A stretch of 64,000 nt of DNA, from positions 29,552,638 to 29,616,637 of the forward strand of contig JAGTTD010000010.1 of NCBI GenBank assembly GCA_018398585.1, written 5' to 3'. The DNA is from Simmondsia chinensis (lineage: Eukaryota; Streptophyta; Magnoliopsida; Caryophyllales; Simmondsiaceae). This document shows, in pieces, positions 29,543 to 64,000 of the stretch (its first letter is position 1; every line of letters begins with the position of its first letter). A model generated the notes under the pieces. It was not told where the DNA came from and ran no database searches. It saw only the letters and a list, made by a program, of their open reading frames with translations. A program made the position numbers and the translations under genes.

Positions 29543-31733
29543 ATGTCATCCTCTACAATTAATAAAAACGATTCAACAATGGGCGATAGTTTTTCATCAC
29601 CAAATTTTTCTCCCGATATTGGTTCTTCTCCAACTTCTACACCTTCGGTAATAGATGATACTCCAAAGAGTAGTACGCACCAACAAGATTCTGCTAGAAA
29701 AGGTAAAAGAAAACGGTCCCCTTTTTGGGATCATTTTAGCAAGATCCCTCTTAAGGAAGGGGAAACCTCATCTGATTAAAGAGCTGAATGCATGTACTGT
29801 AAGAAAGATATTAGTGCGTGTTCTAAAAGTGGAACTACTGCAATTAAAAATCACTTACTTAGGTGTAAGGAGTACCCACCTAATATTGACAAGTCACAAA
29901 AGCTTATATCTTTGACAAAAATAGAGCCATGCAGTGATCAAGAAACCGGGGTTATGAAATTAGCTAAAGTTGAATTATTCAAATTTAAGCAAGAAGTTGC
30001 TAGGGAAGCGTTGGCTACAATGGTAATATTGGATGAGTTACCTTTTAAAAATGTGGAACGTGAGGGCTTTAGAATTTTTTGCCAGGCTATGCAACCGAAT
30101 TTTGTCATTCCTTCACGTTGGACCGTTGCTAGAGATTGCTTTAGTCTTTATACAGAGGAGAGGAAAAAGATGAAGCAATTCTTTAAAAACTGTTCTTCGA
30201 GAGTTTGTCTCACTACTGATACTTGGACATCTTGTCAAAATTTAAGTTATATGTGTCTCACAGCTCATTTTGTTGATAGTAACTGGAAATTACATACAAA
30301 AATTGTGAATTTTTGTCCAATCTCTGGTCATGCTGGAGAAGTGATTGGGAAAGCTGTAGAGAGATGTTTGATTGATTGGGGGATTGATAATGTTTTAACC
30401 ATTACAGTGGATAATGCAAGCTCAAATAATGTGGGAATTCAATACTTGAGAAGAAGACTTAATAACTGGAAAGGCACTGTCCTAAAGGGTGAATCTTTGC
30501 ACATAAGATGTATTGCACATATTCTGAGTCTCACGGTTAAGGAAGGCTTAAAGGAGTTAAATGATTCTATTACGAGAATTCGTTATGCTGTCAAATTTGT
30601 GAGGTCATCTCCAACTAGACTTCAAAAGTTTAAGTCGTGTGCAACAAGAAAAGATAGATTCCAAAAGTCTTATTTGCTTAGATGTTGAAACTCGGTGGAA
30701 TTCAACATACTTGATGTTATCATCAGCATTGACATTTCGAAGCGCATTTGATTTGTTGGAAACTCTTGATAGCAAATACAAATCAGAACTTGATAAGCAC
30801 TTTTGTGTACCTATTTGTGATGATTGGGATCATGTTCAATCATTATTGCCTTTTCTGAAAATTTTTTATGAGGCGACTTTGAGGCTATCAGGATCTTTAT
30901 ATGTAACAACAAATTTGTATTTGCAAGAGATTGTTGGCATTAGGGTGATGATTAATAGGAAATGTGTCAGTGATAATAATAATAATAATAATATAAAAAT
31001 GATGGCTCATGGCATGAAAAAAAAGCATGATAAGTACTGGGCAAATATTGATAATGTCAATCTCTTGCTCTATATTGCTGTGATACTTGATCCTAGACGT
31101 AAAATGCAATATGTTAACTGGGCAATTGATCAACAATATGATTTTGATGTTGCTTGTAAGTTGCTTGGAAAGGTTACGATTACTTTAGTTTCCTTATTTG
31201 AGTTTTATGGTGCGAAACATGAGTCTTCCTTGAGTGTAACGCGAACAACTTCTGCTAGTATTGATTTGACTGATAGAGAAATTGAGAATATGGATGATGT
31301 GAATGAATTGATGGAGTATGAGTTCGAAAAGCAAGCAAGCATGCAAATGACTTCAAATAAGAAAGGTGAGTTGGATAAATATTTGGAGGAGGATAGAGAA
31401 ATTAGTCCAAAGATATTTGACATTTTGGGTTGGTGGAAAAAGCGTGCAGACATGTTCCCTATTCTTGCCCTGATTGCGAGGGATGTATTGGCTATACCAG
31501 TTTCAACAGTAGTATCTGAATCTGCATTTAGCACCGGAGGTCGAGTGCTTGATTCTTTCCGTAGTTCTCTTACTTCAAGAATGGTAGAAGCTCTTATATG
31601 TTCGCAGGACTGGCTACGATCTACTTCTGAACCACTTATCGTGGAGGAAAGTATTGAAGAAGTTGAAAATTTTGAATCAGGTGATATACTTATTCGTTTA
31701 CATGTAATAAGTTTTTATAGTTATAACATGTAA
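29543..31733 (+). pseudogene. hAT transposase (BED finger, RNase H-like core, hATC)
   Basis: The frame starts just after a TTTTCATCTTGTATAG acceptor-like sequence. Order: Ser/Thr-rich N-terminus; a BED zinc finger (WDHFSKI at about 29728, CMYCKK at about 29793, HLLRC at about 29858); the catalytic core with LTTDTWTSCQNLSYMCL (first Asp, 30215) and VDNASSNN (second Asp, 30410); 'DVETRWNSTYLML' (30680); and the C-terminal hATC dimerisation block (VLAIPVSTVVSESAFSTGGR, 31484-31545). There are two lesions: an in-frame TAA at 29777-29779, in the BED finger, and a one-step frameshift near 30636-30640. The last codons probably run into a 3' intron (GT near 31681, TTGTATAG at about 31775). In intact relatives it excises and re-inserts the element. 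Confidence 0.9.
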
Positions 31734-43017: not shown

Positions 43018-43029
43018 TGTTTTAGATTT

Positions 43030-43429
43030 TGTTAGCTTTCAATTCAAAATTGAAAGGCTAACCTTGTAGAAGAAGAGTTGAGATGAGAAGAGAAGTGAAA
43101 GGGGATGAGAAATAGAGAAGTAGATGAGAAAAGAGGGAGAAATTTCAAAGGAAAATCTAAATTTTATTGATTGAATGAAGAAATTATATGCTTAGAGCTT
43201 ATTTATAAAAAATTAGGAACATTGAACCTAGACAACTACCATAACCAACTCAAACAGAATTTTGGCGCCAAAATGCACAGCCGCCAAGTTTGACCTATCT
43301 TGACCACTAACCGACCTTCCCTTGGTGCCAAACCAACCCAACTAACTTTTGAATACAGAAAACTCAACAATGAAGACAATACCCAAGAATACAACCAAAA
43401 TTACAATCAAAATCTAAAGATTCATAACA
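43030..43429 (-). repeat. Chromovirus 3' LTR
   Basis: Outer edge TGTTAGCTTTCAATTC, inner edge ...GATTCATAACA, followed by the pyrimidine run that is the polypurine tract on the coding strand. It contains GGCGCCAAAATG and an AT-rich stretch with a TATA-like TTATTTATAAAAA near 43200. Confidence 0.9.
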
Positions 43430-43449
43430 TTCCCTCCCTCTTGAGAAAC

Positions 43450-44330
43450 TTCTTGTCCTCGAGGAGTAAAATTTGGGAATTGGCTCTTCAAGAAATTGCA
43501 ATTTTTCCAACTCACAAAGCTCATGTTCAAGTTGCTTCATTTCACCAACACCTCTTGCAACGCACCATTTCCCACCCGCAGCTTTCTCCGAGCCTTGACA
43601 GCAACTGGGTGCAGCAGCAGCTTCCCATTAGACCCTGCTTCAGGAGGCTCCCGAACAACTTCAGTTCCCTTCTTGACCTAGTTTTTAAGTAGAGAGACAT
43701 GGAATACCGGGTGAATGTATGAATGTGAAGGTAAGTCAAGCTTGTATGCAACATTGCCAATTTTCTCCAAAATCTTGTATGGACCAAAGAAACGGGCACT
43801 TAGCTTGACATTTCACCTGACAGCCAAAGAAGACTGTCTATACGGTTGTAATTTTAGGTAGACCATATCTCCAACTTCATAACTTTTGTCTACCCTCTTT
43901 TTATCTGCATAAAATTTCATTCGTGCCCGAGCTTATCTTTAAGCACTTGCACAATCTGCTTCCTCTGCTGCACTAAATCACCTACTGCTAAATCAAGAGC
44001 TCCCAGTTGCTGCAGCAACATTGGAGAGGGAGGAGAATAGCCATACAAGGCTTGGAAAGGTGAAGTGCCTATGCATGCATGAAAGTGAGTGTTAAACTAG
44101 TACTCCGCCAAAGAAAGCCAATGATTCCACTCTCTAGGCCGTGAGAAAACCATACTCCGGAGATACTGCTCTACACATTGGTTGACACGTTCGGTTTGGC
44201 CATCCGTTTGAGGATGATAAGAGGAACGAAGTGCCAACGTTGTACCCATCAATTTGAACAGCTCCCTCCAAAATGTGCTTGTGAAAATCTTATCACGATC
44301 CAAAACAATTGATTGAGGCAATCCATGTAA
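43450..44330 (-). pseudogene. Chromovirus integrase end and chromodomain
   Basis: Minus-strand frames contain the integrase catalytic part, LPQSIVLDRDKIFTSTFW (44260-44320, second Asp present) and 'RSSYHPQTDGQTERVNQC' (44170-44225, catalytic Glu present), then 'FQALYGYSPP' (about 44040). The post-core '[19 protein letters not shown]' follows (43730-43790), then '[10 protein letters not shown]' (43690-43720). The last part reads as a chromodomain, with a 'VLVKWSNLN' core and 'NFLKSQFPNF' end (about 43475-43560). Stops and frameshifts occur from 44330 on. Chromodomains steer insertion to heterochromatin in this group. Confidence 0.8.
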
Positions 44331-45905
44331 CTAGTAAATGTTGTCAAAGAAGGTTCGTGCCAATTTTTCAACAGAAATAGGACGAGCAAGAGTAATGAAA
44401 TGACTATACTTGGTGAAACGATCCACTACCACCCATATGACTTCCTTGCCCTCGGATCTTGGCAATCCTTCAATGAAATTCATGCTAATGTTGATCCAAG
44501 CTCCATCCGGAATGGGAAGGGGTTGAAGAAGACCCTTGTAACGATGATCTCCCAATTTGGTTTGTTGACATGCCTCACAAGCCTTAACATACTCACTCAC
44601 TTCCCTTTTCATACTTGGCCAACTAAAGTAAGCCTTGACCCGTTGATAAGTACCTTCTATGCCGGCATGACCTCCCCAAGCTGCATCATGAGAAGCTTGT
44701 ATAATCTGATCCCTTAACCCAGTAGCAGACCCAATGTACAATTTGCCATGTACTTTGATCATACCTCTTTGCACTGAAATTCCAGCTGCGTTGCCATCTT
44801 TTCCTGCATCCTTCACAAGGGCAGCTGCTACATATTCTTGGGCAAAAGAATCACCCTCATATGTCTTGTAAAGCTCGTCCACCCATGAAGGGATCACCAC
44901 GGTTGTAGCACTGCAGTACCCCATTTCAGCATCTTCAAATTTTCTTGACAAGGCATCGGCTGCAGCATTCTCCTTGCCTCTTCTATACTCAATGTCATGA
45001 TCAAGGCCAAGCATCTTCATTAGGCCCTTCTTTTGAATTCTCGCCACAATATTTTGCTCAAGGAGATGCTTGAGGCTTTGGTGATCCGTTCGAATGATGA
45101 ACTTGTGACCATCCGAGTAATGCCTCCATTTTTCAACGGCTAAAAGAATTGCTAAATATTTTTTCTCAAAAGTCGACATAGCTTGATGCTTGGGACTACG
45201 AGCTTGACTCAAGTAAGAAATAGGCCTTCCATGTTGAGAAAGAATAGCCCCAGTACCTGAACCGCTTGCATCTGTCTCCAAAACAAAGCTCTCGGTAAAG
45301 TTTGGCATTGCCAACACTGGTGCAGCACACATAGCGGACTTAAGAGCTTCAAATGCAGCCTGTGACCTCTCATTCCATGTGAATGCATCCTTCTTCAAGA
45401 GTTATGTTAAAGGTTTGGCAACGTAACCATATCCTTTAATGAATTTTCTATAATACCCGGTCAATCCCAAAAAACCTCTCAATTGCTTCATCGTTATTGG
45501 AATTGGCCAATCTTGCATTGCTTGGATCTTAGTAGGATCAGTGGAAACTCCTTCTTGAGAGATGACATGGCCCAAATACTCAAGCATTGTCTAAGCAAAC
45601 GAACACTTGGACAACTTCGCAAAGAACTTGTGTTGCCGCATCACCACAAAGACTTGTCTAAGGTTAGTGAGATGATCTTCATAAGAGGAGCTATAAATCA
45701 GTATGTCCTTGAAGAATACGAGCACTGATCTTCTCAAGAAAGGTTTGAAAACATCATTCATTGCCGCTTGAAAAGTGGCCGGAGCATTTATTAGGCCGAA
45801 AGGCATAATAACAAACTCGAAATGCCATGATGAGTCTGAAAAGCAGTCTTGTATATATCTGGTTCAAGAACTCTGATTTGATGATACCCCTGTCTCAAAT
45901 CAAGC
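44331..45905 (-). pseudogene. Chromovirus RT palm to integrase core
   Basis: The region holds the RT palm ([15 protein letters not shown] at 45840-45885, with a one-base shift near 45820), '[20 protein letters not shown]', and the catalytic segment [14 protein letters not shown] at 45700-45735, where the usual first Asp of the catalytic pair is Lys. '[14 protein letters not shown]' follows, then the RNase H region from 45398 (FVLETDASGSGTGAILSQHG, 45240-45300; STFEKKYLAILLAVEKWRHY). The integrase zinc-binding domain is around 44530-44700 (HAGIEGTYQRV, CEACQQTK). 'INISMNFIEGLP' near 44480 has Asn where the first catalytic Asp is expected. Stops at 45399-45401 and 45588-45590 interrupt it. Confidence 0.88.
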
Positions 45906-48254
45906 TTAGAGAAGAAGCATGCTCCGCAAATCATCTATGACGGGAATGGGAAACTTATCCTTCACTTTCAAAGAATTCAATTGCCGATAATCAATGCACA
46001 TTCTAGCTGAGCCATCTTTCTTCTTCACAAGGATCACAGGTGAAGCAAAAGGACTATGGCTTGGCCTAATGAAACTCATGTGAGCATAGCGGTGTGGCCT
46101 AATCTTGACCGGATCAGCATTCGCACGAAGAGGAATGGCATGGTCCATGCTTCTTTGAGGAGGAAGGCTCTTTGGTTGCTCAAAAATGTCCTCAAACTCT
46201 TCAACCAAGGCCTGAACTTCTGGCTTGATGTCCGGCTGCAGCTTAACAGAGGAGATCACAAACAAATGCCCGAGCCACTGGACTGCTTTCTTCCTGATTC
46301 CTCCTTGAAGTCGCTTACCATCAATCAACTTGAGCTGAGCTTCCTCTGATATGCCTTGCAGAGAGACCTTGGTGCCATGAACCTCAAATGCCACGGTCAT
46401 TTTATCAAAATCAAACACCACTGGGTTGAAGGTTCTCATCCAATCCACCCCTAGCACCATATCACAACCTCCCAAAGGAAGTACTCTAAAATAAAAGGTG
46501 AATTGATGATCTTGCATAGACCATGGGAATGCTAGGAACTTGTTTTGAGTTGTTAGTGAATTGCCATCAGCCACCATGACTGCCAATGGGTGAGTCTTTG
46601 TCACTTCATGCCTTACCTTTTTAATCAACTTAGGATCAACGAAACTATGTGTGCTCCCACTATCAATAAGAACAACGATAGAGGTTTTACCAGCCTTGTC
46701 TCTAATTCTAATGGTATTATGAGCTCCACTCCCGGTCAAGGCGTTCATGGATATCTCAACTTCATCATCTGTCATCCCATCTTGTGAAGTAGGACCATCA
46801 CTGTCTTCCTCTGCATCTGAATCTTCACTACCCGATGCAACCCCAGCACGGGACCGTCTAGCATACATTAAGGTCTGAGATTTACACCTATGGCCAAGCT
46901 GATAAGGCTGATTACAGAGAAAGCATAACCTCACTGAACTCTTGTCAACAACACGGGTAAATCTTGGACCAGAATGCTTGTTCTGCTGCGGTCTGTTACT
47001 ACTGCCATGGAGCTTATTCTTGTCACTTGAATTGGCTAAGGTAGCATCAATCAACTTAGCCTTGTTGTAAGCACTAGACAATGTTTTAGGACCTATGGCT
47101 TTCACCATATTTTTGATACTAGGCTTCAATCCACTAATGAAACAAGAGACATAATAGGATTGTGTGTCCTCTGGAGCAATGGATATGATGGACAACAAAT
47201 TAGTTTGTAAATTCTCAAATCTAATCATATACTCCCTCACGGTTAAAGTTTGGTACACCTTATTAAAACTGTCCACAACATCAATCACCTCTTGCTCACC
47301 ATATCGTTCACACATTTCTTCTACGAATTGGCCCCAAGAAAGATTAGGTTTGCTCTTCAACAAACTATAATACCATACCTCATAATCGCCATGTAAATGT
47401 AGTGCAGCTACCTGAAGCTTTTCATCATCTGGTATGTTATAAAACTGAAAGTACCGGTCACATCTTCTCAGCCAAGATTTTGGTTGTTTTCCATCAAAAG
47501 GATCTATCTCCACCCTTGGCTGCCTGTAAGTTCCACTCCTGCCACCAGATGAGTTGTCATTACTCCTCGATCTATGCTGAAATTGTCGATCAGGAGGTCT
47601 ATCTGGATGTTCAAGCTCGTCATCTGCAATTCTGTGAAGCAAAGTAGAATTCTGTTGCCTGAAGTTGTGATCTGCATTTAAGGCATTAGATCTGCAATGT
47701 ACTTGTCCTGAGGCACGATCCTGATTATCTACATCAATTTCAAGTTGTAAAGGTTGATTCTCAGCTAATCTGATGTGGATTGAAGGTCCTACTTCAGGTT
47801 GCAACATCGGAGACTTTCCTCGAGTCTTGCACAACTCTTTAGTTCTGTCAACCTTGATTTGCTGCTGATCCACTTCAACATGTTGAAAAATCTGACTAGC
47901 TGGCTTAAGGATTGCTTTAATTGAGGATTCTCCTTGCTTATTAACCTGTTCCTGCAACTGCACAAGCTTCACCTCAATTTGTTGCAACAGATCTTCCTTA
48001 TTCGCATCTTTTTCCAAAAGTAACTGCTGTATCTTTAACATTCTTTCAATATTATCATTTATGTTCCGAAGATGATAAGTAGTGATATATTCAGGTCCAG
48101 TTGTAACGTTTGCACCAGCTTCCTTAGCATGAGATACATTAGGACCTGCAACCACAGCAGCATAGTTCATCTCCGGACTAGGTGCATTTGCTCCTCCAGC
48201 TCCAGATCTAGTTCTTACACCTTCGATCATGATTTTTTTTAATATTGATACCAA
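45906..48254 (-). pseudogene. Chromovirus gag-protease-RT start, 782-codon frame
   Basis: One open frame runs without a break. The first ATG is just after the primer-binding site; the next in-frame Met is nine codons in ([12 protein letters not shown]), a plausible start. Order: an N-terminal coiled region (residues about 70-120, '[15 protein letters not shown]'); the gag capsid domain (about 245-415, [20 protein letters not shown], '[17 protein letters not shown]'); a zinc knuckle (about 450-470, [14 protein letters not shown]); retropepsin (about 530-640, [15 protein letters not shown] with DSG intact, and DMVLGVDWM); and the RT start (about 690-780, [25 protein letters not shown]). The frame ends at a deletion of about a dozen bases before the RT palm. 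It is normally one gag-pol polyprotein. Confidence 0.9.
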
Positions 48255-48255
48255 T
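48237..48255 (-). other. Chromovirus primer-binding site and gag leader
   Basis: On the minus strand TTGGTATCAATATT follows the LTR end directly. The first nine bases match the initiator-Met tRNA complement. The leader is only about 25 bp before the gag frame. Confidence 0.7.
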
Positions 48256-48656
48256 TGTTATCTTCCAATTCGAAATTGAAAGGCTAACCTTGTAGAAGAA
48301 GAGTTGAGATGAGAAGAGAAGTGAAAGGGGATGAGAAATAGAGAAGTAGATGAGAAAAGAGGGAGAAATTCCAAAGGAAAATCTGAATTTTATTGATTGA
48401 ATGAAGAAATTACATGCTTAGAGCTTATTTATACAAAATTAGGAACATTGAACCTAGCCAACTACCATAACCGACTCAAACAGAATTTTGGCGCCAAAAT
48501 GCACAACCGCCAAGTTTGACCTATCTTGACCACTAACCGACCTTGCCTTGGCGCCAAACCAACCCAACTAACTTTTGAATACATGACAACTCAACAATGA
48601 AGACAATACCCAAGAATACAACCAAAATTACAATCAAAATCTAACGATTCATAACA
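48256..48656 (-). repeat. Chromovirus 5' LTR
   Basis: This is the second LTR copy, with edges TGTTATCTTCC and ...GATTCATAACA. It differs from the other copy by scattered substitutions, mostly transitions. Both copies carry GGCGCCAAAATG. Confidence 0.9.
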
Positions 48657-58919: not shown

Positions 58920-59027
58920 AAGTTTTAGGTAACAGATTTAAAGTGTTACAAAATGCAACAAATGTAACACTTCATAAAAAGTGTTGCCTATAATATGGCT
59001 TATGCAACAATTTTTTTAGAATGTTAC
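58920..59027. repeat. CACTA-like subterminal repeats, right side
   Basis: AAAGTGTTAC, AATGTAACACTT, AAAGTGTTGCC and ATGTTAC motifs cluster here and are cut by the LTR element at 59028. The cluster continues after it at 63946-64000 (ACATTAGGTAC, AAATGTAACAG, CGTTACATTAG). Confidence 0.55.
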
Positions 59028-59667
59028 TGTTACAAACCGAAAATCCGAGGCTTGAATTTTAATTGATGGAAATGGCAGGAAGTCTGTTAAAATGCTTCTT
59101 TTGTTCTGTTCTGCTGCTAACCTGCTTGCTGCTGCGTTGCTACTTGATGCTGTTATGTGCTGCATAATATTGCTGAATGTCTGCTACTGTTGGTGTGCGC
59201 TGTTAGTTGCTGATTAGAGTAGTTAGTGATGTATTAGCTTGGTCTTTAGCTTCTTCACTACATTGTAATAAGCTGCAAGTGTTCTGTATTGTAAGCCCGC
59301 AGTAGGCATGCTGCTGCTGTTGGTCTTGGAGATGTTAGATTTAGGTAGTATGCTAGTTATTAGATATTTTCTAAGTGTTCTAGATAGTTCTTTAGTCGGT
59401 TAAGCTAGTAAGTCTAAGATGCAATGTATTAGCAAGCTTGATCTTGCCTATAAGTAGTTGCTTTCTGCTGTAATTGAGAGGCATTTAATCAAATATCAAA
59501 CACAATCTCATTTTGAGATCAATATTCTCTCTCTCATCTAACTCTCTCTATTTCCTCATCTAATTTCCCTTCTTTCTCTCATCTAAACTCTATATTCTTT
59601 CTCATCTCATATTCTCACTATCCCAACCAAGGTTAAGGCTCAAGAGCTAATCTTCGAAACCTTAACA
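59028..59667 (+). repeat. 5' LTR of the unknown-ORF element
   Basis: Edges TGTTACAAACC and ...ACCTTAACA. Contains GCTGCT-rich stretches and a CTATAAGTAG TATA-like box near 59450. Compared with the 3' copy it has an extra segment of about 24 bp (near 59296-59320), lacks an insertion near 59092, and shows mainly C/T and G/A differences. Confidence 0.9.
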
Positions 59668-59668
59668 A

Positions 59669-59684
59669 TTGGTATCAGAGCTAG
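59669..59684 (+). other. Primer-binding site
   Basis: TTGGTATCAGAGCTAG begins two bases after the LTR end and matches the 3' end of initiator-Met tRNA, as in the chromovirus. Confidence 0.85.
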
Positions 59685-60580
59685 GTTTGGCTTCCGAATC
59701 AATCTCGTATCTGAAAAAAAAATTATAAAATCTGATTAATTGTGTTGCAGTTAATCAACAAAAGAAGTTTTGATATTGCATTAAGTCAGATTTGGATCAG
59801 AATTCAAATCTGAGAAATTGAAGTAATTTTGGCTCGTATTGCATCAGTTTTTGCATCAGCCTGGGAATATCGCTTGCAGTTGGGATTAAGGTGATCAATT
59901 GCATTGAAGAAGGTTGATTTGATCCACATTATACTTGATCTTCATCCAAATAGCAGGAAATCATCTGAATTGAGGTTTATTCAGGTTCTGCAATTCAGAA
60001 GTGGAAGATTGAGGTAATGCTTTGTGATCTTCAAGTTGCAATTCATTGAGAAATTCGTGTTTGTTGTTTGATGATGTCGAATTTGTGTTGGTGAGCTTGG
60101 AAGTAGTGAGAATTTATCAGAATCAATGGTGATCTCTGAGAATTACGTGTTATTGAGTCGATATTTTGCTTAGGCGAAAATTTGTCAGCAGCAGGCGAAA
60201 TCTGACAGGCGAAGTGAGAGTGTTGAAATCCGATTTCGTTAGTTGAGATCGCTTAAGTGTTGTGTTAAGAACTTGATTTTGGGTTAGAGTCGAGCCTAAT
60301 TCAGCAAGTATAAGTCCAATTACTCGACTAAACATTCCTGTCAGAGGTCGTTCGCGGTTAGGGTTTGTCAGTGTTCTATTCGAAGTTTATCAGTTAGGGA
60401 TTGCAATCATTGACGATCATAGAACCAATAGCAAATGCTTGTTTGTGCGATCGAAGGAGTACAATTTCATTAAGCTAGTGATTGTTGACGAGCTGCGAAA
60501 CAAGTTTTACATTTGTGCGATTTTCGAACTCATTTTCTGCGAACTGAGCTGGTTCAAGTTTGAAGTTGTTCATTCTCGAT
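59685..60580 (+). other. Leader of the unknown-ORF element
   Basis: About 900 bp without a long open frame. No retroviral motif or repeat was recognised. A leader this long is unlike the chromovirus here, which has about 25 bp before gag. Confidence 0.5.
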
Positions 60581-62869
60581 ATGGCTGAGTTGAAAGAGTT
60601 GCTGGAGACTGTAATAAAGTAGCATCAAGAATGTATTCAAGCACAGGTAGAATGGAAACAAGAATTTAAGCAGCTAATGGAAGAACTGAAATATCCAGTT
60701 CAAACGGTAACTAACATCAGTGGTGATTATGCTAGTGTTCTTGATGCAAATGAGTTTCCGGATTTAGCTGATAGCGTTAGACAACCAAAGTTCGTTGTTG
60801 AGCAAAAAGAGGAGGTACAATCTGTTGTTGTTGAAGATGAACTTGATCACGATAATGCCGAAATTGTAGAACACAAGCCAGAAGAATCTGAATGTGAACA
60901 AGAGGATTCTTACGAAGACTCTATGCGAGAGTTAGAGTCTCTTGACGATGTTGAGAAACAATACGACGTGCATCCGGATTGGGAATTTGATTCACATGTC
61001 CGAGGAATGATTAAGAGAGCAAAGAGTAAGTCGAAGAGGAATCGACTAAGTGTAGCATTGAGAGATGTTGTGGGCAAAAAGAAGTTGTTCAAGCCAAAAT
61101 TGAAGCATGTGGTTGTGTTTCAACCTATGATGCTTGATGATCAACAAGAACGAACTCAAGTCGCTGATCTTATTGATGTATATGCTAGTATACAAGGTTT
61201 AGATGGTATACAACGAGTTGGTATGCAGAATCAGAACTTGAGGCCTGCTGTCGAGCTGATTTTGGATCAAAATTACAGCAATTTCATGGCTGAACAATTA
61301 CATTCTGTTGGCCAATCAGATGTTGCTGCTGTGGTACTACCGGATACCGAACAAAGTGTGCTTTTGAGGAGAATATCGGTGTGTTCAAAGACCCATTCAT
61401 ATGAAGAGTTACCTCCTGATCCGGGAGAAGATTTTTAAGTTTATACGAAGCCGAAAAGGGTTGATTCTCTGCTGAAAAGAACTAATCAAGCTGTGAGAGT
61501 GCGTTTCAAAGTCCAACGAAGGAGAGGCAATGTGGTTGAATACGCAATTGAGTTGTTAGATGCATATAAATGCAGTAACCTGCAGGGACTGTATTCAGAT
61601 CAGTCCAGAGGCTGTCCAGCAGGGGTTTTAGCTGATGTAACTAATGTTAAAAGTCCCTTTGACCCGGGAAAGAATGAATTACATGTATTTGGAGGAGCTA
61701 CGCACCCGGTGCCGTTGTTTGATGTTGAAAAAGGCAATGTCGGTACAAGCTTTGGTGGGGAAATGGTTGAGGCTATGGGACATTGTGTAGTTAACATCAA
61801 AGCCAATTATAAAGACAGGAATTATACATTTCACAAGCTACATAATTCGTGTGACGATGAAGTTCCCATTGTCCCGGAATTCGTGTTGTTTCGGTTCATA
61901 CAAAAGCACTTACCTAGAGGGTTGGTAGCTGTTGCTTGTGGGTTGAAGAGTTATGGATGGTTAGAGGAGGTATTGGGCCTCAAATATGACTTCACAGCTG
62001 AAGCTCAAGACCAAGTCAAGCCAACGGTGATAGCATTTGAAAATCGAAACCGAATGCAAATGGAAGCTGCTGTTCGGGTGCTGAACCCGGTGGCGCTTGG
62101 GGTGACCTGTTGTGGTTGTTTCGAATGGAAAAATAATATGCACAAGCTTCAATACTTTCTCAATATATGGATGAAAGAGTACAACAAGGAAACAAGATCT
62201 TTTCTAGCTGAAAATATTTTACATTTCAACAGTAAGGATCAGGACAGATGTTCTCTTTCACTGAAGTTAATTTCAGTTATGCAGTTGTGTCATTGGTGCC
62301 TTGATTGGGAGTACATCTTTAAGTCCAATGATAGGAATTCGATTGTGACCCGTGAGTATTCGATTTGGTGGAGCAAGAGCCCAGATATTCTAGCCAATGC
62401 CACGAAAGCTCAGTTAATCAAGTTGGGGCAGCAGGAGTTCAAGTTAGATGCTGTTATGGCTGGGAGAATTACAATTGATTCTTTGTTAGCATTAGATGAG
62501 CTGTTCGGATTGAGTTTGTTTCATGCTATTATGTCTTTTAGAAGGTGTAATAACTTGTTCACTTCATGTGGCTTCCATATGGACATAAACCGAGCTGCAA
62601 TATATCATTATGGTCTGCATCAAGCTCACAATGCTGAATTATTGGACTCTGCAGTAGCTTGGGTGGAATTGGGAAGCAATCAAGGGTTTGTTGAGCATGT
62701 TATGAGTTGGTTCAGGGTGTGTGAGCTGAATAAGTTGAATATCTTTGCAACAGAGCACATTAAATCAGCAAGGAATCAAGTTCCAGGGGCTAATATGCAT
62801 TTTCGACATGCCCATCGGCAAGTTCGAAGTGAAATACTTCTGTTTTGGAGCTGTTTGAACGGCATTTGA
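60581..62869 (+). pseudogene. Unknown 762-codon ORF of the non-autonomous element (two nonsense codons)
   Basis: Frame ATG 60581 to TGA 62869 is continuous except for TAG at 60620-60622 (codon 14) and TAA at 61436-61438; no frameshift interrupts it. Both stops are single-base C-to-T type changes in context, expected of methylated repeats. Residues 1-40 are a probable coiled coil (MAELKELLETVIK). About 75-150 is acidic (EEVQSVVVEDELDHDNAEIVE), followed by a basic patch (KRAKSKSKRNRL). The second half is Cys/Trp-containing and globular-looking (GVTCCGCFEWKN, LCHWCLDWEYIF). I recognise no capsid, zinc knuckle, protease, RT or integrase motif, and no host family. It might be a transduplicated host gene or a divergent gag-like protein. 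Confidence 0.7.
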
Positions 62870-63239
62870 GAATTTTTACAAGCAGAAATTAATGTTTGTC
62901 TCTCTTGGTTTGAGTTTGGAAGGCCTCCCGAGATGCTGAAGGACTTCATATGAAATTTAATTGGGACAAAGAGACACAAAATCGGTAATGAAGCTTACTA
63001 CATGCATAAACTCAGAATTGTATCTGCATTTGTGAGTTTCAGCAGCGAATCTGGGATTTGAGCAGTGTTAACTGCAACAAGAGAGGTTCGGAATGTGTTG
63101 GTGATGTTTGGTTTGATCGTAGTAGACCTCCTGAAGAGCATTATGTACTCAAGTGCACATCACGATCAATTGAAGTGCTTATGGGGTGTCTCAGCTGCAG
63201 ATTTCAGCAGACTTTGTCACTTCAGGTGTATTTTCATAT

Positions 63240-63310
63240 ACAATAAGTGTCTTCATTGTGACAACTCTCTTCTATTCTTGAGGACAAGAATGTTCTCAAG
63301 GGGAAGGGAA
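63240..63310 (+). other. Chromovirus-like 3' terminal remnant and polypurine tract
   Basis: 'TTGAGGACAAGAATGTTCTC' (63279-63298) leads into AAGGGGAAGGGAA, the polypurine tract before the 3' LTR. In one frame it reads ILEDKNVLKGKG, the C-terminal tail found after chromodomains. The chromovirus has GAGGACAAGAAGTTTCTC followed by AAGAGGGAGGGAA in the same place (minus strand, 43430-43462). Confidence 0.75.
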
Positions 63311-63945
63311 TGTTACAAACCAAAAATTTGAGGCTTGAATTTTAATTGATGGAAATAGCGGGAATGTTAGTTGGTAGTTAAAGTCTGTTAAAATGCTTCT
63401 GTTGTTCTGTTCTGCTGCTAACTTGCTTGCTGCTGCGTTGCTACTTGATGCTGTTATGTGCTGCATAATATTGCTGAATGTCTGTTACTGCTGGTGTGCG
63501 CTGTTAGTTGCTGATTAGAGTAGTTAGTGATGTATTAGCTTGGTCTTTAGCTTCTTTACTACATTGTAATAAGCTGCAAGTGTTCTGTATTGTGCTGTTG
63601 GTCTTGGTGATGTTAGATTTAGGTAGTATGTTAGTTATTAGATATTTTCTAAGTGTTCTAGATAGTTCTTTAGTCGGTTAAGCTAGTAAGTCTAAGATGC
63701 AATGTATTAGCAAGCTTGATCTTGCCTATAAGTAGTTGCTTTCTACTATAATTGAGAGGCATTCAATCAAATATCAAACACAATCTCATTTTGAGATCAA
63801 TATTCTCTCTCTCATCTAACTCTCTCTATTTCCTCATCTAATTTCCCTTCTTTCTCTTATCTAAACTCTATATTCTTTCTCATCTCATATTCTCACTATC
63901 CCAACCAAGGTTAAGGCTCAAGAGCTAATCTTCGAAACCTTAACA
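63311..63945 (+). repeat. 3' LTR of the unknown-ORF element
   Basis: Same edges as the 5' copy, TGTTACAAACC and ...ACCTTAACA. It is followed by the target repeat GTTAC. Differences from the 5' copy are two short indels and about fifteen substitutions, mostly transitions. Confidence 0.9.
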
Positions 63946-64000
63946 GTTACATTAGGTACCAAGCAAATGTAACAGTTCTTCTAAAGCGTTACATTAGATA

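Follow-up and report, generated by a model that had tools for sequence, protein, structure and literature searches.

The 64,000-nucleotide stretch of the Simmondsia chinensis genome analysed here (hereafter the window) contains, at 59028-63945, a complete long terminal repeat (LTR) retrotransposon of 4918 nt with one long frame and no recognisable gag-pol between its LTRs. We read this element as one decayed copy of a large, mosaic family of non-autonomous parasites, whose frame is kept open by selection and may encode a fusion protein of leader, core and tail, which would join Ty3 particles and carry its own RNA; this reading is tentative (probability roughly 0.4). Within it, we infer translation of the frame, co-assembly through a coiled coil in the leader, RNA binding by the core, and the Ty3 partner. 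Because the enzymes are absent, the element would depend on an autonomous partner, and a Ty3 element is the probable partner because its gag leader, polypurine tract (PPT) and LTR start are similar to those of the family. In the proposed mechanism, the frame would be translated into a Gag-leader fusion protein, whose coiled-coil leader may join the Gag of the partner in particles and whose basic core may bind RNA, helping to carry the parasite's own RNA, and the long open tail would serve mainly as packageable, translatable length.

The paired LTRs with TG..CA ends, the primer-binding site (PBS), the PPT and the target-site duplication (TSD) GTTAC, which together define an LTR retrotransposon, are all present (Table 1), so a first-pass annotation of this DNA, made from the letters alone, was right that the unit had moved as an LTR element. 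The PBS stretch, ATTGGTATCAGAGC, starts at 59668 immediately 3' of the 5' LTR and includes the site proper, which we take to be of the initiator tRNA-Met type, and the PPT, AAGGGGAAGGGAA, adjoins the 3' LTR, ending directly before 63311. The two LTRs differ by 15 transitions and 2 transversions over 620 aligned sites (Kimura two-parameter distance 0.028), and at a plant substitution rate of 1.3e-8 per site per year the insertion is about 1 million years old.

In 60581-62866, the frame of interest holds 2 stops, versus 50 and 73 in the other plus frames and 32, 32 and 41 in the minus frames, and its bases show a coding-like pattern across codon positions. None of 2000 sequences simulated with an order-2 Markov model had fewer than 20 stops in the best of its three frames. 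The first-pass annotation counted 762 codons with two stops; these counts hold, but the frame end at 62866 is itself a further lesion of the window copy, because reading continues beyond it in close copies. An uninterrupted frame reaches 852 codons in one close copy and 974 codons in a distant one. Near the 3' end, a stretch coding for WF..xRPPE occurs twice about 200 nt apart (62905-62931 and 63108-63134), and a third related stretch is present in a more distant family member (L052).

Table 1. Coordinates of the features in the window
Feature	Position	Strand	Remarks
Ty3 element	43029..48656	-	gag-protease frame and RNase H/integrase frame; LTRs ~400 nt
5' target-site duplication	59023..59027	.	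GTTAC
5' LTR	59028..59667	+	640 nt; TG...CA
Primer-binding site	59670..59681	+	TGGTATCAGAGC
5' leader	59682..60580	+	~900 nt; 5 upstream ATGs
Long frame	60581..62869	+	762 codons; stops at 60620 and 61436; end at 62867
N-terminal leader slot	60581..60781	+	exchangeable; matches Ty3 gag leader in other subfamilies
Acidic/basic core	60911..61108	+	66 codons (YEDS...KPKLKH); present in each class read
Tail	61109..62866	+	class-specific, weakly constrained, few stops
Polypurine tract	63298..63310	+	
3' LTR	63311..63945	+	635 nt
3' target-site duplication	63946..63950	.	GTTAC

Copy searches covered the genome of 831 Mb in 35 contigs, and the copy counts are lower bounds as only best-ranked candidates were scored. 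At the DNA level there are at least 84 matches (best 40 of 2754 candidates scored), and at the protein level, with the frame of one copy as query, at least 116 (best 59 of 4549 candidates scored), with identities down to the 50s and about 40% for short pieces. The family thus comprises dozens of scored copies and related subfamilies, and a lack of other copies, which the first-pass annotation had named as fatal to its idea, is contradicted. We inspected 26 copies with flanks (L009-L034), divergent frames (L051-L055), two further protein hits (L056 and L057) and LTR-anchored loci (L035-L044). Among the 26 copies and the window, LTR pairs were located at 26 of 27 loci, a few of them from tandem arrangements, and a scripted scan of the ends around the LTR matches gave a perfect 5-bp TSD at 16 of 27, 13 of which have TGTT starts and family-type ends. 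The TSD sequences differ among loci, as is expected of dispersed copies. When 27 sequences were projected onto the window frame, two were free of stops over the covered part and 25 had 1-8 stops.

The window copy is a mosaic, because the upstream part of its LTR diverges from that of copies whose interior is about 95% identical to its own. Compared with L009-L013, identity is about 95% through leader and frame, while in the 5' LTR the downstream part is 93-98% identical and the upstream part (probably U3) 74-83%; taking both window LTRs, the upstream parts are only 71-85% identical to these copies. A genome search with the 5' LTR (best 40 of 4967 candidates scored) gave one close copy (95%) besides the element's own LTRs, which is a solo LTR with no element in its flanks and a CAACA duplication. 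Subfamily B is 94-99% identical to the window from about 59928 through the leader and N-terminus, and 83-84% over the first 1266 nt of the frame. Template switching during reverse transcription is an established mechanism that yields such joints, and the joints in this family appear to fit it.

The first-pass annotation did not notice that the frame is built of a leader, a core and a tail. The first 200 nt of the frame form a slot with interchangeable contents. In single-protein blastp against the window Ty3 gag, the slot gave E-values of 1e-9 for L018 and 6e-13 for L034, and the similarity extends to DNA (L034, 48 nt at 90%; L015, 35 nt at 83%; L018, 40 nt at 80% and 56 nt at 75%). With tblastn, residues 9-125 of the window Ty3 gag matched the leader at 12 of the 31 loci, with E-values between 1e-6 and 8e-5. 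The first-pass annotation, which saw no gag in the frame, is therefore right for the letters of the window copy but not for the slot. The window-type leader (MAELKELLE...) is widespread, with at least 153 matches (best 150 of 1219 candidates scored), two of which, picked for long frames, carry the family core and tail. L034 (E 4e-7) and L031 (E 0.014) carry a further piece of gag leader midway along the frame, so internal insertion of such pieces may have occurred as well. In the AlphaFold model of L015, the leader is a single long helix, with pLDDT of about 67-90 up to residue 70.

Behind the slot lies a new core of about 66 residues, an acidic part followed by a basic part. A strict motif detected it at 25 of 38 loci, and every class read has it, the short units described below among them. 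The tails differ between classes. Seven protein hits beyond the DNA-level copies (L051-L057) show the same order of leader, core and tail as the family, and the frames of L051 and L054 terminate beyond the PPT, past the LTR start. Internal repeats were not found by blastp self-comparison of 6 frame pieces (cut-off 0.01).

At C29:12717257-12731517, C9:12555216-12572809 and C1:19835868-19848686, LTR-like matches recur every 2.4-2.7 kb. The array loci L041, L042 and L043 repeat themselves at this period with 95-97% identity, and each unit carries LTR, leader, N-terminal slot and core, then a different, short tail; these tandem arrays go back to a short class of the family. Elsewhere (C3:13804827-13816625, with L022 and L024, and C31:25447007-25462300), adjacent copies at a spacing of about 4.1-4.5 kb have the look of an LTR-interior-LTR-interior tandem.

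The first-pass annotation also recognised no gag-pol in the window frame, and the searches bear this out. Neither open piece of the frame matched a Pfam or NCBIfam family, the larger piece matched no PDB chain, and tblastn of the window Ty3 frames against the element gave nothing at E up to 1. The Pfam search is controlled by the window Ty3 element, in which the same search recognised RVP_2, Ty3_capsid, Retrotrans_gag, RNase H-like and integrase zinc-binding domains. Between the LTRs of 25 copies with an LTR pair, tblastn found no match to Ty3 gag core, RNase H or integrase, the queries being both open frames of the window Ty3 element, which do not span the whole reverse transcriptase (RT). 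A hidden gag or pol was rejected, as tblastn on 31 copies gave only the leader between located LTRs. Ty3 hits lie outside the LTRs in L012, L013, L015, L027, L029 and L033, and in L032, where LTRs were not located, a pol hit lies on the opposite strand at one edge of the locus. Sequence searches of Pfam, NCBIfam, PHROGs and PDB yielded nothing usable, and no capsid or zinc-knuckle family was found in the family frames. Weak hits, three to Pfam from single members (E 0.006-0.03) and two to PHROGs (E 0.04-0.06), were taken as noise. Large protein sets, in which plant coverage may be poor, gave nothing at 1e-3.

The frame is kept open by selection, as seen in stop avoidance. In 12 chosen between-subfamily pairs (16-24% DNA divergence), 0-5 stops were seen versus 11-17 expected from simulation with the observed substitution spectrum; 10 pairs were below all 400 simulations and 2 equalled the lowest (the pairs in this and the following stop comparisons share sequences and are not independent). 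Three Ty3 gag pairs resemble this group (1-3 stops seen, 11-13 expected). Within subfamilies (7 pairs), 1-10 stops were seen versus 2.5-5.5 expected, as expected for decay after insertion. For the tail only, 7 of 11 pairs were below all 1000 simulations, and the counts of the others were reached by 2, 7, 20 and 23. For the front part (frame nt 201-960), the stop counts of 5 pairs were reached by 2, 0, 65, 18 and 10 of 1000 simulations.

Constraint on the amino acids is weak but frame-specific. It was measured by a maximum-likelihood codon fit with a transition/transversion parameter, used in place of the NG86 method because the latter did not separate the frame from shifted frames. The fits gave omega (dN/dS) of 0.52-0.89 in 21 pairs, with a likelihood ratio (LR) above 3.84 in 13 of 21 and up to 25, but were limited to codons inside blastp matches, which favours conserved stretches. 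In 22 shifted-frame fits on 11 of the pairs, omega was 0.73-1.29 and no LR exceeded 3.8, while 8 of the same 11 pairs exceeded 3.84 in frame. The Ty3 gag control gave 0.23-0.38 in 6 of 6 pairs. The first-pass annotation had proposed that the frame was under constraint until recently, and allowed that purifying selection might be absent. Stop avoidance and weak purifying selection were both found across copies, so the proposal stands in kind; the constraint is weaker than the low number of lesions had implied.

Besides the restriction of the fits, a number of observations weigh against a fusion protein selected for its sequence. Substitutions are spread about evenly over codon positions, the third taking 30-39%, versus 26/25/49% over the three positions in Ty3 gag (21 pooled pairs). 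The NG86 dN/dS values of 0.6-0.7 were similar in shifted frames and were dropped as a signal of constraint. By region in order, omega is 0.37 (leader), 1.39, 0.48 (core), 0.67, 1.08, 1.38, 0.56, 0.70 and 0.73; it exceeds 1 in 3 of 9 regions, and the leader value comes partly from pairs with different leader types, 55% identical. For the 66 core codons, all 12 pairs have omega below 1 (0.25-0.81), but LR exceeds 3.84 in just 3, and in one shifted frame 9 of 12 pairs are also below 1, 2 of them significantly, so the core signal is not firm. Among 25 aligned core rows, 14 of 160 columns are invariant and 20 nearly so, part of which is a consequence of selecting most rows with the motif. Indel lengths, in which post-insertion indels are mixed, have no bias to multiples of three. 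The leader of the window copy itself did not match the window Ty3 gag. Structure prediction, proposed by the first-pass annotation, gave the helical leader of L015 but no confident fold beyond it; of all 852 residues, 782 have pLDDT below 50, on a shallow alignment, and the core model has short helices only.

The close and main rival, which we regard as quite possible, is that the frame is an open spacer: an untruncated translated stretch would matter, either to avoid nonsense-mediated decay of a long RNA or to keep packageable length, with the amino acids hardly counting and the gag leader kept through overlap with a packaging signal. Stop avoidance by itself does not separate this from the fusion protein, and its combination with nearly even codon positions favours a spacer. 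The tail agrees as well, with omega of 0.56-1.38 by region, differences between classes, no predicted fold, and the two frames that run past the LTR start. However, an omega below 1 that is specific to the frame, with shifted frames near 1, speaks against a spacer, as does the different, shorter tail of the tandem-array units. The two readings can be combined, with a functional leader and core followed by a spacer tail.

A more specific form of the fusion protein is rather doubtful. Here the parasite would encode its own packaging adaptor, in which the coiled-coil leader of the partner's Gag is fused to a new acidic/basic core, the leader would be swapped again between subfamilies as if tracking partners, and the tail would be translatable with its sequence little regarded; such a class would be new to us. 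The shifted-frame control on the core slightly lowers the odds of the fusion protein, both in this form and in general, and raises those of the open spacer.

The first-pass annotation suggested either capture of a gene or a divergent structural protein. Under capture, a Ty3 element would have transduced a cellular gene, which has since diverged into core and tail. Beyond the leader there is no similarity to gag-pol, and the base pattern over codon positions is coding-like, both of which suit a captured gene. Against it, no usable relative was found in Pfam, NCBIfam, PDB or the protein sets (possibly poor in plants), the own-genome protein hits inspected (L051-L057) keep the family's own order of parts, and no host parent gene was recognised among the best 59 of 4549 protein-level candidates, few of which were inspected. 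We consider capture improbable. The same low standing is given to a divergent structural protein, in which the whole frame would replace Gag and assemble particles alone: the Gag-type leader is N-terminal in several subfamilies and the core is basic, but the capsid and zinc-knuckle searches were negative and the tail is weakly constrained and class-specific. That the frame is a chance opening in a decayed, non-coding large retrotransposon derivative (LARD) is extremely improbable and is rejected by the Markov simulation, as simulated chance frames have at least 20 stops and open frames recur in diverged subfamilies, even though decay is common (25 of the 27 projected sequences carry one stop or more).

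Among known systems, LARDs have LTRs, PBS and PPT, no gag-pol and a non-coding interior, and depend on a partner. The family is similar in being a long, partner-dependent LTR element with no gag-pol found between the LTRs, but differs in its frames, which are open (up to 852 and 974 codons) and, judged from sequence comparison, weakly constrained. TRIM elements are very short, non-autonomous and without an open reading frame (ORF); they share LTRs, PBS and PPT with the family, whereas the window element is 4.9 kb with a long frame. Bs1-type LTR elements transduce genes and likewise carry foreign-looking coding sequence between LTRs, but no host parent gene was recognised for this family among the candidates scored. 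TR-GAG elements have two LTRs and one ORF, are non-autonomous, and are thought to rely on a full-length relative for the remaining proteins; transposition of one such element has been reported in Arabidopsis ddm1 (PMC8704663, PMC9784723). In the accessible parts of these two sources, the one-ORF elements have Gag, RT, RH or INT domains and none has an unrecognised frame. The family resembles TR-GAG in its two LTRs, single ORF and non-autonomy, but TR-GAG encodes a Gag protein, whereas the family has only a gag leader of about 100 residues in some subfamilies, with no capsid domain found. The family works as a non-autonomous parasite of the LARD/TR-GAG kind, while its interior is not non-coding as in LARD and it does not encode a Gag protein as TR-GAG does. 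No description of such a family was found in the literature searched, which most subscription papers lie outside.

The window Ty3/gypsy element has LTRs 96-97% identical to each other, and its gag-protease frame has 40 scored matches, including the window itself, the others being 83-93% identical. It resembles the family in gag leader, PPT and LTR start (for example, 63277-63315 around the PPT is 87% identical to it over 39 nt), but differs in its gag core, protease, RNase H and integrase, which were not found in the family copies searched. The set of gag, protease, RT, RNase H and integrase that makes a Ty3/gypsy element autonomous was not found in the family, with part of RT outside the tblastn query and Pfam run on the two open pieces of the window frame. 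The window also contains a hAT transposase (29792-31733) in two overlapping frames, apparently frameshifted; the second has hAT dimerisation and RNase H-like domains, and the first has no Pfam hit.

It is an old question how non-autonomous LTR elements outlast their helpers and come to exceed them in number, and the usual view treats such elements as passive RNA. A long frame of their own behind a helper-type gag leader suggests that some non-autonomous elements may play an active part. The leader and the 66-residue core are small enough to be tested for Gag and RNA binding, and the tail may offer a natural example in which selection acts on whether a frame stays open more than on the residues it encodes.

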